64,000 bases of DNA from positions 310,001 through 374,000 of the forward strand of contig NZ_CP144125.1 in NCBI RefSeq assembly GCF_036429475.1. Reading direction: 5' to 3'. The position numbers and the translations under genes were made by a program. Below, one piece after another: positions 39,736 to 46,429 of the stretch. Origin of the DNA: Halalkalicoccus sp. CGA53. GTDB taxonomy: Archaea > Halobacteriota > Halobacteria > Halobacteriales > Halalkalicoccaceae. The notes beneath the pieces were generated by a model. It was not told the origin of the DNA, searched no databases, and worked only from the letters and a program-made list of their open reading frames with translations. Each line of letters starts with the position of its first letter. The stretch's first letter is position 1.

Positions 39736-41961
39736 CTACTGGAAACCGATCCGACTCTCGTGACGTCCGCGGCCCGGTTCGGCGGTTCCGCCGGCGAACT
39801 GGTCCTCGATCTCCTCGTAGTAGCTGAGGATGTCGTCGGTGATCGTCGGCCGAACCGAGTCCATCGCCTGCCGGAAGTGACGCATCTCGACGATGTCGGT
39901 GTCGGCGTCCTCTCGGAGCGCGGTCATCGCCGCCTCGCGGGCGATCGACTCGAGGTCGGAGCCGACGAAGCCGTCGGTGATCTCGCCGAGCTCTTTCAGG
40001 CTCACGTCCGCGGCCAGCGGCATGTCTCGGGTGTGGATCTCGAGGATCTCGCGGCGGCCCTCCTCGGAGGGCTGGCCGATCATCACCAGCCGGTCGAACC
40101 GACCCGAGCGGATCAGCGCCGGGTCGATCATGTCCGGCCTGTTCGTCGCGGCGATCACCATCACGTTCTCCATCTCCTCCAGCCCGTCGAGCTCGGTGAG
40201 CAGCTGGTTGACCACCCGCTCGGAGACGTTGCTGCCGGCGTCCTGACCCCGGTTGGGCGCCAGCGAGTCGAGTTCGTCGAAGAAGATCACCGTCGGGCTG
40301 ACCTGCCTCGCCTTGCGGAACGTCTGGCGGATCGCCTTCTCCGACTCGCCCACCCACTTCGAGAGGAGCTGTGGCCCGCGAACCGAGATGAAGTTGGCGT
40401 TCGTTTCGTTCGCTACCGCCTTGGCCATCAGCGTCTTTCCGGTGCCGGGCGGTCCGTAGAGCAACACGCCCGCGGGCGGTTGGATACCCATCCGAACGAA
40501 CCGCTCGGGGTCGGTGAGCGGCCACTCGACGCTCTCTCTGACGTCCATCATCGCCTCCTCCAGCCCGCCGATGTCCTCCCAGCTCACCTTCGGGAGCTCG
40601 ACGAGCACCTCGCGCATCGCGCTCGGTTCGACCTCGCCGAGCGCGCCGCGGAAGTCAGAGCGCTTGACGATCATCCGGTCGATCAGGCTCGGCGGGATCT
40701 CCTCTTCATCCAAATCGATCTCGGGGAGGTACCTCCGGAGCGCCTTCATCGCCGCCTCTTTCGTCAGCGACTCGATGTCCGCGCCGACGAAGCCGTGGGT
40801 GTCCTCCGCGAGCTCGTCCAGACAGACGTCGTCGGACAGCGGCATCCCGCGGGTGTGGATCTGGATGACCTCCTTTCGTCCGGATTCGTCCGGCACGTCG
40901 ATCGAGATCTCGCGGTCGAACCGGCCCGGCCTCCGAAGGGCCGGGTCGACGCTGTCGACGCGGTTGGTCGCCGCGATGACGATCACCTGACCGCGGGACT
41001 CGAGGCCGTCCATCATCGTCAGCAGTTGCGCGACGACCCGGCGTTCGACCTCGCCGGTGACGTCCTCGCGCTTGGGCGCGATCGAGTCGAGTTCGTCGAT
41101 GAAGATGATCGCGGGCGACTCCTCGGCGGCGTCCTCGAAGATCTCTCGAAGCTGTTGTTCGCTCTCCCCGTAGTACTTCGAGATGATCTCCGGACCCGCG
41201 ATGGAGAAGAAACTCGCACTCGTCTCGTTCGCGACGGCCTTCGCGAGCAGCGTCTTTCCGGTACCGGGCGGTCCGTGCAGGAGAACTCCCTGTGGCGGCT
41301 CGATCCCCAGCTTCTTGAAGATCTGGGGGTGTTTCATCGGCAGTTCGACCATCTCGCGCACGCGCTGGATCTCGTTCTGGAGGCCGCCGATGTCCTCGTA
41401 GGTGATGCCGGTGCGCTGGCTGTCGAAGCCGGAGATCGGCTCCTCTCTGAGTTCGACCTCGGTGTCCTCGGTGATGAGACAGACGCCCTCCGGGTCGGTC
41501 TCGACGGCGATGAGGGGGATCGCCTGGCCGGGCGAGCGCATGAACGGGTGGTTCGTGCTGCTCATCACCGGGACGATGTCGCGTTCGACGACCGGCCGTT
41601 TGAGGATCTGACGTTTGACCATCCCGGCGGCGTCGGAGCCGAACTGGACCGACGCCTCCTCGGGCGGGGCGAGGACGAGCGTGTTCGCCTTCGCGGCCTC
41701 GGCCTTCCGAATCGTCACCCGTTCGCCGATGCCGATGTCGGCGTTCTGTCGGGTGAAGCCGTCGATCCGCACCGTATCGGTGTTCCAGTCCTGGCGGTCG
41801 GCGCGCCAGACCTTCGCGGCGGTCGTCTCGCCGCCCTCGATCTCGATGATGTCGCCGGGGCTCAGCTTCAGGTGCAGTAGCGTATCCGGGTCGAGGCGTG
41901 CGATGCCCCTGCCCGAGTCGTTGGGATAGGCCTTCGTGACCTCGAGTTGGACTTCGTTCAT
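39736..41961 (-). CDS. cdc48: Cdc48/VAT-type AAA ATPase
   Basis: A 741-residue protein with the full p97/VAT layout. The N-terminal substrate domain begins [20 protein letters not shown]. Two AAA modules follow, each with GPPGTGKT and a Walker B ([12 protein letters not shown] and [12 protein letters not shown]); the Arg fingers in the [12 protein letters not shown] and [12 protein letters not shown] motifs are intact. It unfolds proteins, probably for the proteasome. It ends with a short polar tail. It starts at ATG 41961 and is divergent from larC. Confidence 0.96.
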
Positions 41962-42133: not shown

Positions 42134-43444
42134 ATGCGAACGCTCGCCTTCGACGGGCGGATGGGCGCGAGCGGCGACATGCTGCTCGCGACGCTCTGTG
42201 ACCTCGGCGCGGACCCGGCCGTCCTCGACGTGGTCGAAGACCACCTCGACGTCCGATACGAGATCCGAGAGGTCGTAAAGAACGGGATCGCCGCGACGAG
42301 CGTCGACGTCGTCCTCGACGATGGAGGGGAATCGACCCGGCCCGAGAACCACTCGGACTCCGACGGGGACGGTGACGGCCACGACGCCGATCGCGAGCAC
42401 ACCCACTCCTCCGGCCACGACCATCACGGAGACGACCACGGCCACGTCCACGCCGAGGGTCACGGCCCACACCGCTCGTACACGGAGGTCGTCGAGGCCG
42501 TCGAGGCGATGGATCTGGGTACGGGGATCGGGGACGAGGCGGTCGCGATCTTCACGCTCCTGGGCGAGGCCGAGGCGAGCGTCCACGGCGGGTCACTCGA
42601 GAGGATCCACTTCCACGAGGTCGGCGCTGACGACGCCATCGCGGACGTGATCGGGACGCTCCTCCTGCTCGACGACCTGGAGGTGGACCGAGTCGTCACG
42701 ACGCCGCTGTCGGTCGGTGGCGGCTCCGTCTCGATGAGCCACGGGGTCTACCCGGTCCCCGGTCCGGCGACCGTCGAGATAGCCGAACGTGCCGACTGGT
42801 CGCTCCGAGGCGGGCCGATCGAGCGCGAACTGCTCACGCCGACCGGCGCCGCGATCCTCGCTCACCTCGCGGATGGTGTCGAGCACCTTCCCTCGCTCCG
42901 GGTCGAGCGATCGGGCTACGGTTCTGGGACCCTCGACCTCCCCGAACACGCGAACGTCCTCCGCGGGATCGTCGGCGAGGAACGTTCGTTGGTGCGGGAG
43001 GAGATCACGGTGCTGGAGACGAACCTCGACGACACGACGCCCGAGGTCCTCGGTGGCCTCCAGGAGACGCTCGCCGAGATCGGTGCCCGCGACGTCTCGA
43101 TCCTCCCCGCGACGATGAAGAAGTCCCGGCCCGGGCACCTCGTGAAGGTGATCGCCAGATCCGAGGACGCCGAACGGGTCGCTCGCCGGCTCGCCGAGGA
43201 GACCGGTACCCTCGGCGTGCGCACGACGCCCGGTACGCACCGCTGGATCGCCCGCCGGCAGATCGAGTCGGTGACGATCAAGGTCGACGACGAGCGTTAC
43301 GAGGTGGACGTCAAGGTCGCGAGCGACGACTCCGGTACCGTCTACGACGTGAGCGCGGAGTACGACGACGCGGCGGCCATCGCGCGCGAAACTGGATTGC
43401 CGATCCGGGAGATACTGCGCCGGGTGGAGACTGCGTACCGATAG
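42134..43444 (+). CDS. larC: Nickel insertion protein LarC
   Basis: A 436-residue LarC (DUF111). It begins RTLAFDGRMGASGDMLLATL, and the core HFHEVGADDAIADVIG and GSGTLDLPEHANVLR are typical. Residues 72-113 form a His-rich linker (17 or so His) able to hold nickel. LarC inserts nickel into the pincer cofactor of lactate racemase and related enzymes. Neither larB/larE nor larA is in the window, so their genes must lie elsewhere. Confidence 0.93.
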   Translation: MRTLAFDGRMGASGDMLLATLCDLGADPAVLDVVEDHLDVRYEIREVVKNGIAATSVDVVLDDGGESTRPENHSDSDGDGDGHDADREHTHSSGHDHHGDDHGHVHAEGHGPHRSYTEVVEAVEAMDLGTGIGDEAVAIFTLLGEAEASVHGGSLERIHFHEVGADDAIADVIGTLLLLDDLEVDRVVTTPLSVGGGSVSMSHGVYPVPGPATVEIAERADWSLRGGPIERELLTPTGAAILAHLADGVEHLPSLRVERSGYGSGTLDLPEHANVLRGIVGEERSLVREEITVLETNLDDTTPEVLGGLQETLAEIGARDVSILPATMKKSRPGHLVKVIARSEDAERVARRLAEETGTLGVRTTPGTHRWIARRQIESVTIKVDDERYEVDVKVASDDSGTVYDVSAEYDDAAAIARETGLPIREILRRVETAYR

Positions 43445-43458
43445 CCCGTCGGTCCGGC

Positions 43459-44196
43459 CTACCGCTCTCGGTGCTCTTCGATGGCCTCGTCCAGCGTGAG
43501 TTCGCCGAGCGCGACCCGGCGGGCGAGCGGGGCGTCGATCTCGCGGTTCTCGTCCGATCGTTCGCGCGACCTGTCCTGGATCACGCGGATCTCCCCGTCG
43601 CTCGGCTCGATCTCCCGGGAGTCGATCGGTTCGCCCTTCCGTCGTGCGATGTTCACCGCCGCGAGCACGTCGCCCATCCCCCGGGTACCGGTACCGAGTG
43701 AGGGCGTCGTCCCCGTCTCGTCGACGAGTTCGACCCGCACGCCGTCGATCGCCTCGACGATCCGCGCGCCCTGGAGCCGTGCGCCGTCGCCGATCCGCAC
43801 GATCGCCTCGGGATCGTCCTCGACCTCCCGTCGAACCACCTCCGCTGCGTCGGCCAGCGGGACGTGGAACGCGGCGACGACCGTCTCCCCCTGTACGACC
43901 GCGACTCCCGGACGGGCTCCAGGATCGACTCCGATTACCGTTCGGTCGCCCTCCTCCCGAAGCGTCGAGAGCGCCGTCTCGACCGCCCAGCGTGGATCGC
44001 CCGGCTCGGCTCTCACCTGCTCGATTGCGGGAGCTGCGTACCGGTCGGGGTCGTCGCTCGCACCCGTGACGAGGACGGACGTCCCCTCGGGGAGCGACTC
44101 CCCCCACTCGATCGTTGTGAAGGCCACGTCGCGGTCTTTCAGCTCACCGACCACGTCGTGGTACACCTCGAAGTCGGCGGTCGCGACGACGATCAC
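43459..44196 (-). CDS. RuvC/RNase H-like predicted nuclease
   Basis: A 245-residue protein. Residues 1-60 form a small alpha/beta part. From residue 85 the pattern resembles RuvC/YqgF resolvases: VIGVDPGARPGVAVV with Asp91, VELVDETGTTPS with Asp159/Glu160, and MGDVLAAVNIARR with Asp176, three acidic positions in the order needed for two-metal catalysis. The C-terminal part is charged. GTG 44196 is the start. It is divergent from radB with 79 bp between, which supports a role in recombination. The nuclease assignment is my inference. Confidence 0.6.
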   Translation of the reverse strand: MIVVATADFEVYHDVVGELKDRDVAFTTIEWGESLPEGTSVLVTGASDDPDRYAAPAIEQVRAEPGDPRWAVETALSTLREEGDRTVIGVDPGARPGVAVVQGETVVAAFHVPLADAAEVVRREVEDDPEAIVRIGDGARLQGARIVEAIDGVRVELVDETGTTPSLGTGTRGMGDVLAAVNIARRKGEPIDSREIEPSDGEIRVIQDRSRERSDENREIDAPLARRVALGELTLDEAIEEHRER

Positions 44197-44275
44197 GGTC
44201 GAGATAGGCGGTCGGGGGGTAAACGCCTTCCCCGGGAGCCGGGGGGCTTTAGTCCGACCGCGGCAAACCCCGGGC

Positions 44276-44983
44276 GTGAACGACGAGGGACGGCTGCCGA
44301 CTGGCTGTGGGGCGCTCGACGAACTCGTCTGCGGCGGGCTCGAACGCGGGACCGTCACGCAGGTCTACGGTCCACCCGCGGCGGGGAAGACGAACGTCGC
44401 GCTCTGTGCTGCCGTCGCGGCGGCCGCCCGCGGCGAGCGCTCGGTCGTCATCGATACGGAAGGGATCTCGATCGACCGGTTCGGACAGCTCCTCGAGGCC
44501 TCCGCGGCGGATACCGAGGAGTCGATCGAGACCATATCGGGACGGGTCGTCCTGCAGGAGGTCTACGACTTCGAGGGCCAGGAGGAGGCGGTGCGAGACG
44601 CGGCCGAGCTCGCGGAGAACGTCGACCTGATCGTCCTCGACAGCGCGACCGGTTTCTACCGGCTCGAACGCGACGACGACGACGGCGGCGAGACGCTCCG
44701 ACGGGTCGGGCGACAGGTCACACACCTGCTCTCGCTCGCCCGCAGACACGACCTCGCGGTGCTCATTACCAACCAGGTGTTCACCGACCCCGATGCCGAC
44801 CGGATCCGAGCGCTCGGCGGGCACACCCTCGGTCACCTCACGGGGACGGTCGTCAGACTCGACCGGTTTCGAGGTGGCAACCGCCGGGCGACGCTCGAGA
44901 AACACCGGGCGAAAGCCGTCGGCGAGAACGTCACCTTCCGGATCACCGGTGACGGGATGGAGAGCGTCGAAGACATCATCTGA
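44276..44983 (+). CDS. radB: DNA repair protein RadB
   Basis: A 235-residue RecA-family ATPase without the N-terminal domain of RadA, as is normal for RadB. The Walker A is GPPAAGKTN near residue 32, Walker B is VDLIVLDSATGFY, and ITNQVFTDPD follows. RadB is a recombination mediator that assists RadA and interacts with Hjc in some archaea. Start is GTG 44276. The next gene on the plus strand is far away, and the 3' end faces the CBS-HPF gene. Confidence 0.93.
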   Translation: MNDEGRLPTGCGALDELVCGGLERGTVTQVYGPPAAGKTNVALCAAVAAAARGERSVVIDTEGISIDRFGQLLEASAADTEESIETISGRVVLQEVYDFEGQEEAVRDAAELAENVDLIVLDSATGFYRLERDDDDGGETLRRVGRQVTHLLSLARRHDLAVLITNQVFTDPDADRIRALGGHTLGHLTGTVVRLDRFRGGNRRATLEKHRAKAVGENVTFRITGDGMESVEDII

Positions 44984-45198: not shown

Positions 45199-46341
45199 TT
45201 AGAGCTCGTTCAGCTTTCTCAACAGCTGGCCCTCGTAGAACTCGTCGCTCTCGATGCCTTTCATCTCGATCACGTTCCGTTCGAGCTTGTCGAGGGCGAC
45301 GTGGAAGGCGTTGTCCGCACCGTAGCCCTCGCCGGAGCCGGCGACCTGCCCCCGGTTCGTGCGGAGCCGGATCGCACACTGGATCAGCGGCGTGCCCCTG
45401 AGTTTCTCCTTGTGCTTCTGGAAGCGGACGTGGGCGTGGTGGACGTCCATCCGCCTGTACTTATCGCAGACGGCCTCGATGTCCCGGCGGATGTCCTGGC
45501 GCTCGATCGTGTCCAGCAGGTCGATGTTCGTGATCTGGACGTCGAGGTGGTCCTCCTCGGTGAAGGTGAGCGCGCGGAGCACGTCGCTCTTCGTGACGAC
45601 ACCGGCGACGAGGCCGTCGTCGTAGTCGGGGGTGACGATCAGCCCGGAGTAGTCGTTGTCGAGCATTCGCGAGACGGTTTCGTCGACGGTCTCGCCGATC
45701 GTGGCGGTGATCACCGGACTGTTCATCACGTCCCTGACCGGGATGTCGAGTACTCGCTCTAAGTCGCCGCCGCGGTCGCCGACGGTCGCCTTGTCCATCC
45801 GCCTGACGACGACGTCACGGAGGTCGTGGATCGTGACGACACCGGTGAGCCGACCGTCCTCCTCGACGACCGGCAGCCGGGAGATACCGTGTTCGCGCAG
45901 CAGGTTGATCGCGCGGCCGACGCCCGTGTCCGTTCGAACCGAGACGACCTCCTCGGTGTAGATCTGGTCGACGGTGATCGCGTCGAGGTTCTCGAGGACC
46001 GCCTCGAGCAGGGCGTCGGCGTGGATGAAGCCGTAGAGCTCCTCGCCGTCGAACACTGGCGCGACCATCGTCCCACCCTCGACGAGCATCCGTGCGACCT
46101 CGCGGACGTCGGTGTCGATGTCGATCTGTGGAGCCGAGCGCATGAACGCCGCGGCCTTGGTACTGTCCTCGACGTGGGACTGGAGCAACTGACGTTCGGT
46201 GATGATCCCCGCGTACTCGTCGTCGCGGGTGACGATGATCCCCTTCGGGTTCTCCGACCCGAACCGGGCGCGGACCTTCCCGAAGCGTTCCTCGGCGTCG
46301 ACCTGCACGAACTCCGTGGTCGCGATGTCTACGATATCCAT
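45199..46341 (-). CDS. Four-CBS protein fused to a ribosome-hibernation (HPF/S30AE-like) domain
   Basis: A 380-residue protein. Residues 1-265 hold four CBS motifs in two Bateman modules (for example GIIVTRDDEYAGIITERQLL, ISRLPVVEEDGRLTGVVTIHDL), which bind adenine nucleotides. Residues about 267-365 (LDVQITNIDLLDTIERQDI to AGSGEGYGADNAFHVALDKLERNVIE) follow the beta-alpha-beta3-alpha pattern of HPF/S30AE proteins, which bind the decoding site of idle ribosomes. The likely role is energy-sensed ribosome silencing. ATG 46341 is the start. It has no operon partner. Confidence 0.8.
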   Translation of the reverse strand: MDIVDIATTEFVQVDAEERFGKVRARFGSENPKGIIVTRDDEYAGIITERQLLQSHVEDSTKAAAFMRSAPQIDIDTDVREVARMLVEGGTMVAPVFDGEELYGFIHADALLEAVLENLDAITVDQIYTEEVVSVRTDTGVGRAINLLREHGISRLPVVEEDGRLTGVVTIHDLRDVVVRRMDKATVGDRGGDLERVLDIPVRDVMNSPVITATIGETVDETVSRMLDNDYSGLIVTPDYDDGLVAGVVTKSDVLRALTFTEEDHLDVQITNIDLLDTIERQDIRRDIEAVCDKYRRMDVHHAHVRFQKHKEKLRGTPLIQCAIRLRTNRGQVAGSGEGYGADNAFHVALDKLERNVIEMKGIESDEFYEGQLLRKLNEL

Positions 46342-46429
46342 ACCAACAGCGAGGGTTCGCCGTCCAGGGTTAAAACCGTTGGTCCGGACGATCATCAGCG
46401 TTTAGACAGCTCCCGCCCTCGCTCCGCTC

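Follow-up and report, generated by a model that had tools for sequence, protein, structure and literature searches.

A conserved YqgF/Tex-like protein of the RNase H-like superfamily encoded divergently from radB: a candidate archaeal repair nuclease

Introduction

The archaeal junction resolvase Hjc (PF01870) has a restriction-endonuclease-like fold, and RuvC (PF02075) carries the second acid of its active site on strand 4. According to the parts of the survey by Majorek and co-workers consulted here (PMC3985635), this second acid is shifted from strand 4 to strand 5 in YqgF and Tex and stays on strand 4 in DUF460 (COG2433; PF04312), while the third carboxylate is kept in YqgF and missing from Tex. 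From the same source, the YqgF acid is bent away in the structure, and by 2014 activity was unproven for both YqgF and Tex. The title of PDB entry 7ess (2021) reports that RuvX cleaves branched substrates, so that, as far as this title goes, activity is possible for a site of the YqgF type.

RadB is a studied recombination mediator of euryarchaea. In Halalkalicoccus sp. CGA53, its divergently encoded neighbor—here called NUC—has neither name nor function in the libraries and papers that we searched, and among the open-licence papers covered we found none describing the NUC family or a radB-linked nuclease. We analyzed NUC within a stretch of 64,000 nucleotides (the window, to which all plain coordinates refer) and compared it with known RNase H-like families and across genomes of the phylum.

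A predicted RNase H-like core with two additional parts

NUC lies on the minus strand (43459..44196) and radB, a RecA-family recombination mediator gene, on the plus strand (44276..44983; GTG start; Pfam Rad51 match, 5e-22), with 79 bp between them (44197..44275), just as a preliminary description of this DNA had placed a 245-residue protein relative to radB. The GTG start of NUC (44196-44194) is backed by an AT peak at −29 to −25 (0.84–1.00 across 64 haloarchaeal loci), and a search of the own genome with NUC returned a single match.

The AF2 model of the 245-residue protein (mean pLDDT 89.7, pTM 0.64) comprises a flavodoxin-like N-terminal domain, an RNase H-like core and a helical tail. The N-terminal domain (residues 1–82; 43951..44196, minus) is a small flavodoxin/receiver-like alpha-beta unit in which T6, D8, F9, F26, and T28 are conserved. 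The core (residues 83–191, approximately; 43624..43950, minus), delimited by structure prediction together with fold and profile comparison, has the strand and helix order b1-b2-b3-a-b4-a-b5-a, which assigns it to the RNase H-like superfamily. The tail (residues 192–245; 43462..43623, minus) has conserved E202, R211, I220, and A225. The relationship to RuvC and YqgF that the preliminary description had proposed to examine by structure prediction is seen in the predicted core, both in the AF2 model and by structure comparison.

Among known structures, VIA-align ranked Tex first (3bzk; Z 11.7, 104 aligned, rmsd 3.5), followed by D. radiodurans YqgF (7w89; Z 11.0), the IS621 recombinase (Z 10.9), RuvC (6s16; Z 10.8), and Spt6 (7oop; Z 10.5), all five scores lying within 1.2. 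The first Foldseek matches in the PDB were likewise Tex structures (2.1e-5 and 1.6e-4), which puts Tex at the head of both PDB comparisons, and a viral library returned generic RuvC-like and terminase folds. When folded alone, the N-terminal domain reached a pLDDT of 94.6; its matches were sugar-phosphotransferase IIB, PurE, and receiver domains (best Z 9.2, tied), with none by Foldseek at E ≤ 0.001, and these matches show only a common flavodoxin-like arrangement.

An acid layout of the YqgF/Tex type

The acidic residues that the preliminary description had seen in RuvC-like motif order are all at the positions it gave: D91 (codon 43924..43926, minus) at the end of strand 1 in the motif GVDPG, D159 and E160 (43717..43722, minus) directly after strand 5 in the motif VDETGTT, and D176 (43669..43671, minus) within the opening turn of the last core helix, in the motif GMGDVLAAVNIAR. 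With positions assigned by DSSP, they fall where the acids of RNase H-like proteins are located (end of b1, b4 or b5, last core helix), so that the three acids, which had been expected to cluster, would do so, as judged by topology from the predicted secondary structure. The RuvC-like reading stood in part: the fold is indeed that of the RuvC/YqgF group, but the second acid comes after strand 5, a YqgF/Tex layout rather than that of RuvC.

None of the 138 distinct sequences of the NUC family departs from D91, E160, or D176, and T163 of VDETGTT is as invariant as E160; taken over the alignment, this conservation of the acids is beyond chance. D159 is kept in 136 of the 138 sequences and replaced by N in two, and because of these two exceptions E160 would be the likelier metal ligand of the pair. 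By comparison, position 137 after strand 4 varies between D, H, N, S, and R, with D in just 105 of 138. Unlike Tex, NUC retains D176 as its putative third carboxylate.

Relation to known families

No Pfam model exceeded its cut-off for the window protein and no NCBIfam model matched it. Matches to NCBIfam among 30 NUC members were scattered over unrelated families (best E 0.00075), no sequence relative turned up among PDB chains (best E 0.35 and 0.42), and PADLOC gave one weak match, in one of four NUC proteins tested; PHROG 1770, labeled 'Holliday junction resolvase', matched four out of four tested (E 3e-4 to 3e-3). We also compared a 30-row NUC profile (A1) by HHalign with small self-built alignments of DUF460 (20 sequences), YqgF (9), and Tex (7). 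The single-pair E values are rough, and the best-scoring family aligns least of the core: DUF460 (9.5e-6) was convincing at motif I only, the alignment with YqgF (5e-5) ends on the DE..[ST]T motif, and that with Tex (4e-4) runs across the whole core.

With YqgF/RuvX (PF03652), NUC has in common the RNase H-like core, the second acid placed behind strand 5 within a D-E-x-x-[ST]-T motif (VDETGTT aligning to DER.ST of YqgF), and the third carboxylate, the latter for YqgF as given in the portion of PMC3985635 cited above. However, the 138 residues of E. coli YqgF form a single domain, to which NUC adds the flavodoxin-like domain and the helical tail, and PF03652 matched none of 30 NUC members up to E 1, in a search where weak matches can be lost to the HMMER filters.

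The RNase H domain of Tex and Spt6 (PF16921), the best structural match, likewise has an IGNG-type motif after strand 4 and a glutamate after strand 5, and motifs common to NUC and Tex include IGNG/IGDG, E-G-[AT]-[ST], and an AV[SN]IAR-like stretch. Yet E. coli Tex has 773 residues and lacks the third carboxylate, whereas NUC is a stand-alone protein rather than a multi-domain Tex protein, and PF16921 (Tex_YqgF) gave a weak match in one of the 30 members (E 0.014).

RuvC resembles NUC in fold, but NUC has no invariant acid at strand 4, and PF02075 matched no member among the 30 up to E 1; acid layout and the lack of a model match together rule RuvC out as the family of NUC. In the own genome, PF02075 had 0 matches at E ≤ 0.001.

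Among the weak Pfam matches, the best was to DUF460, an RNase H-like protein of archaea whose motif I resembles that of NUC; 25 of the 30 members matched it, with E 0.001 as the best value. Here, the window protein scored 13.6 bits against a gathering cut-off of 28, again at motif I only, and the N-terminal extension of the alignment joins unlike parts and was distrusted; DUF460 was rejected as the family of NUC. It differs further in its acid, which stays on strand 4 in the cited part of PMC3985635, and in that the own genome encodes a true DUF460 besides NUC. This separate DUF460/COG2433 protein, a member of another uncharacterised archaeal RNase H-like family, is encoded at C2:781578-781973.

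A conserved neighborhood around radB

On its other side, NUC is flanked by a gene for a LarC-type nickel-insertion protein (42134..43444, plus), beyond which lies that of a Cdc48-type AAA ATPase (39736..41961, minus), both conserved neighbors in the block. A gene for a CBS-domain protein (45199..46395, minus) stands on the far side of radB and is frequent there in haloarchaea. We surveyed 80 haloarchaeal loci, the best 80 of 278 related stretches and hence a close, related sample. The divergent radB–NUC pair is present in 73 of them, the two genes being no more than 300 bp apart in 55, 301–1000 bp in nine, and more than 1000 bp in nine. In two further loci radB is otherwise oriented, and in five it was not found in the fetched stretch, one of which (L032) begins at a contig end.

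Outside the haloarchaea, all 15 genomes examined in four other families have the divergent pair (six of seven in f9, one in f14, four in f16, four in f22; the radB match of one, L029, being partial), frequently accompanied by LarC and Cdc48 in unchanged order. The divergent link to radB on which the preliminary description had built is thus conserved well beyond the window. The parts of PMC10470531 seen by us name HVO_2382 as an uncharacterised protein of interest; its location between Cdc48a (HVO_2380) and RadB (HVO_2383) makes it a possible NUC homologue.

In three more families (f19, f31, and f36), radB was not found in the fetched stretch at 12 of 12 loci, some of them short contigs. The neighbors read in f31 and f36 (seven loci) were DUF373, nucleoside phosphorylase, and amidohydrolase genes. 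In f19, a FEN1-type flap nuclease gene directly precedes NUC in the same orientation in three of three loci read (one checked with Pfam). A protein-isoaspartate methyltransferase gene converges on NUC in the f19 loci L146, L154, and L156 (Pfam check for L154 only).

Distribution and likely loss of NUC

Profile A1 found matches in 132 of 392 genomes of the phylum at E ≤ 1e-3. Defined by a best match of E ≤ 1e-50, NUC orthologues were present in 89 of the 132, and the 43 genomes with weak rows alone were dropped; all nine proteins tested from such rows (E 1e-5 to 1e-3; frames of 290–828 aa) were true DUF460. NUC is carried by 61 of 81 Halobacteriales, counting the own genome, and by 28 of the 311 other genomes, distributed over seven families (f9, 7; f14, 1; f16, 4; f19, 5; f22, 4; f31, 4; f36, 3). 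Two expectations of the preliminary description need narrowing in this light. Co-occurrence with radB across Halobacteria applies in one direction, as 20 of 81 Halobacteriales have radB without NUC. Likewise, the view of NUC as an element of haloarchaeal recombination gains from the conserved radB link, but its carriers extend beyond haloarchaea.

We inspected the radB regions of seven of these 20 NUC-less Halobacteriales (L211–L217), and all seven have at least one of Cdc48, LarC, and CBS near radB. Because they keep these neighbors, the regions suggest an older gene block from which NUC was lost in some Halobacteriales.

In Natronorubrum bangense, a NUC relative beside radB and the CBS gene is annotated as 'hypothetical protein'. 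This NUC–radB–CBS group resides on an 827-kb replicon deposited as a plasmid (NZ_CP031306.1), which gave the only NUC match among 72,556 plasmid records.

Possible functions of NUC

NUC is most likely a metal-dependent nuclease of the RNase H-like superfamily, in its YqgF/Tex/RuvC part, that serves recombination or repair; we assign this reading as a whole a probability of roughly 0.5. D91, E160, and D176, with D159 adjacent, would hold metal ions and cut the phosphodiester backbone, the flavodoxin-like domain and the helical tail might select substrate or partner, and the protein would act on branched or hybrid nucleic acid arising from RadA/RadB-dependent recombination or replication repair. 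Catalysis, a nucleic-acid substrate, and a role in recombination are what we infer here, with differing confidence. Because of the predicted fold and the conservation of the active site, NUC is likely a working nuclease, while for the link to recombination, drawn from gene order only, the odds are about even.

Several observations weigh against a recombination nuclease. Firstly, radB is near-universal (over cut-off in 371 of 392 genomes), whereas NUC is found in 89 of 392, and among the Halobacteriales with radB but without NUC some preserve remnants of the NUC gene block. Secondly, the seven f31 and f36 loci had no radB in the fetched stretch, and in the part of PMC5480776 consulted, radB of Pyrococcales sits in an operon with polD1 instead. 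Thirdly, synteny alone need not mean a joint function of NUC and radB, because Cdc48 and LarC are in the block, too. The unproven activity of YqgF and Tex by 2014, as the cited part of PMC3985635 has it, counts on the same side.

The main rival—doubtful in our view, but to be taken seriously—is that NUC is a nuclease for RNA processing, the role put forward for bacterial YqgF, and that its adjacency to radB is inherited synteny. The YqgF-type acid layout with its DE..TT motif would fit such a role, as would the naming of YqgF entries in the PDB ('Putative pre-16S rRNA nuclease'), the three families that keep NUC apart from radB, and the presence of Cdc48 and LarC in the block without an obvious common role. 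An ORF resembling ribosomal protein L21e (by eye) lies about 4.5 kb from NUC in one f36 locus (L150). However, no rRNA-processing or ribosomal gene was recognised directly beside NUC in the 15 loci read for ORFs (by eye, with Pfam on five neighbors), NUC is missing from 20 of 81 Halobacteriales and from most of the other genomes sampled, and all 15 genomes examined in four other families retain radB beside it.

NUC might alternatively be a Holliday-junction resolvase that works with or replaces Hjc, the archaeal enzyme with which it could overlap in function and which the own genome encodes as a separate gene (C2:983689-983964). While the fold group common to RuvC and YqgF speaks for it, the acid layout differs from that of RuvC. 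We took a census of resolvases in 196 genomes (33 haloarchaea and 163 others, one weak NUC row dropped), calling Hjc strong at E ≤ 1e-20 (PF01870) and RuvC when over cut-off (PF02075). NUC orthologues were found in 21 of the 33 haloarchaea and 22 of the 163 others, RuvC in 0 and 54, and strong Hjc in 33 and 36, respectively, the last being patchy in the phylum by a Pfam model that divergent Hjc could escape. No genome among the 196 had strong Hjc together with RuvC, and 73 of the 163 non-haloarchaeal genomes had neither.

In haloarchaea, NUC coexists with Hjc and does not replace it: all 33 have Hjc, 21 of them NUC as well. Of the 22 non-haloarchaeal carriers, by contrast, none has strong Hjc and five have RuvC, so that both are missing from 17 of 22 carriers, which favors a resolvase. 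Yet this also applies to 56 of 141 non-carriers, arguing that something else can resolve junctions, and Hef is an alternative in H. volcanii according to the part of PMC7776575 that we drew on. Moreover, all four f16 genomes and the single f31 genome in the sample have both NUC and true RuvC, and weak Hjc matches above the cut-off occur in two f19 carriers. Since genomes within a family are not independent, we draw no significance from the census; over its 196 genomes, a replacement of Hjc by NUC was not clearly supported. Overall, we regard Holliday-junction resolution by NUC as unlikely.

In a more specific and still more speculative version, NUC would be neither Hjc/Hje nor RuvC but a third archaeal type of nuclease for junctions or branched DNA; working with RadB, it would serve as the main resolving enzyme where neither strong Hjc nor RuvC is detected (f9, f14, f22, and f19). 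That NUC is instead a non-catalytic nucleic-acid-binding protein, akin to the RNase H domain of Tex or Spt6, is very unlikely, since Tex—albeit first in both PDB structure comparisons and similar in its IGNG/IGDG, E-G-[AT]-[ST], and AV[SN]IAR-like motifs—lacks the third carboxylate (PMC3985635, part consulted), the counterpart of which, D176, is present in 138 of 138 NUC sequences.

Returning to a nuclease in recombination or repair, NUC represents a real, conserved, and unnamed family of a known superfamily beside a key recombination gene, and as such a candidate for an overlooked repair enzyme. Its rearranged site of the YqgF/Tex type, with three invariant carboxylates, could show when such a site is catalytic and on which substrate. 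The question is directly testable, as a NUC deletion can be made in Haloferax and the protein can be obtained in pure form from non-halophilic relatives.

Putative promoter elements of the divergent pair

The 79-bp intergenic region contains two back-to-back TATA-like elements with putative promoter roles, TTTA for NUC (44220-44223, minus) and CCGGGGGGCTTTAG for radB (44239-44252, plus). An AT peak is found before radB at the same place as before NUC (0.91–1.00 across 35 loci). The NUC element is of the ordinary TTTATT type and radB commonly has a distinct TTCCGGGGnnTTTTTGCG element or a variant thereof; because the elements differ, the pair seems to have two promoters rather than one common element, a further point against a recombination nuclease.

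The radB promoter element of the TTCCGGGGnnTTTTTGCG type is unusually conserved in many haloarchaea (upstream regions L033–L111). A regulon defined by this element was not seen in six f4 genomes: at up to one mismatch, the element was absent in one and occurred once in each of the other five, just upstream of NUC.
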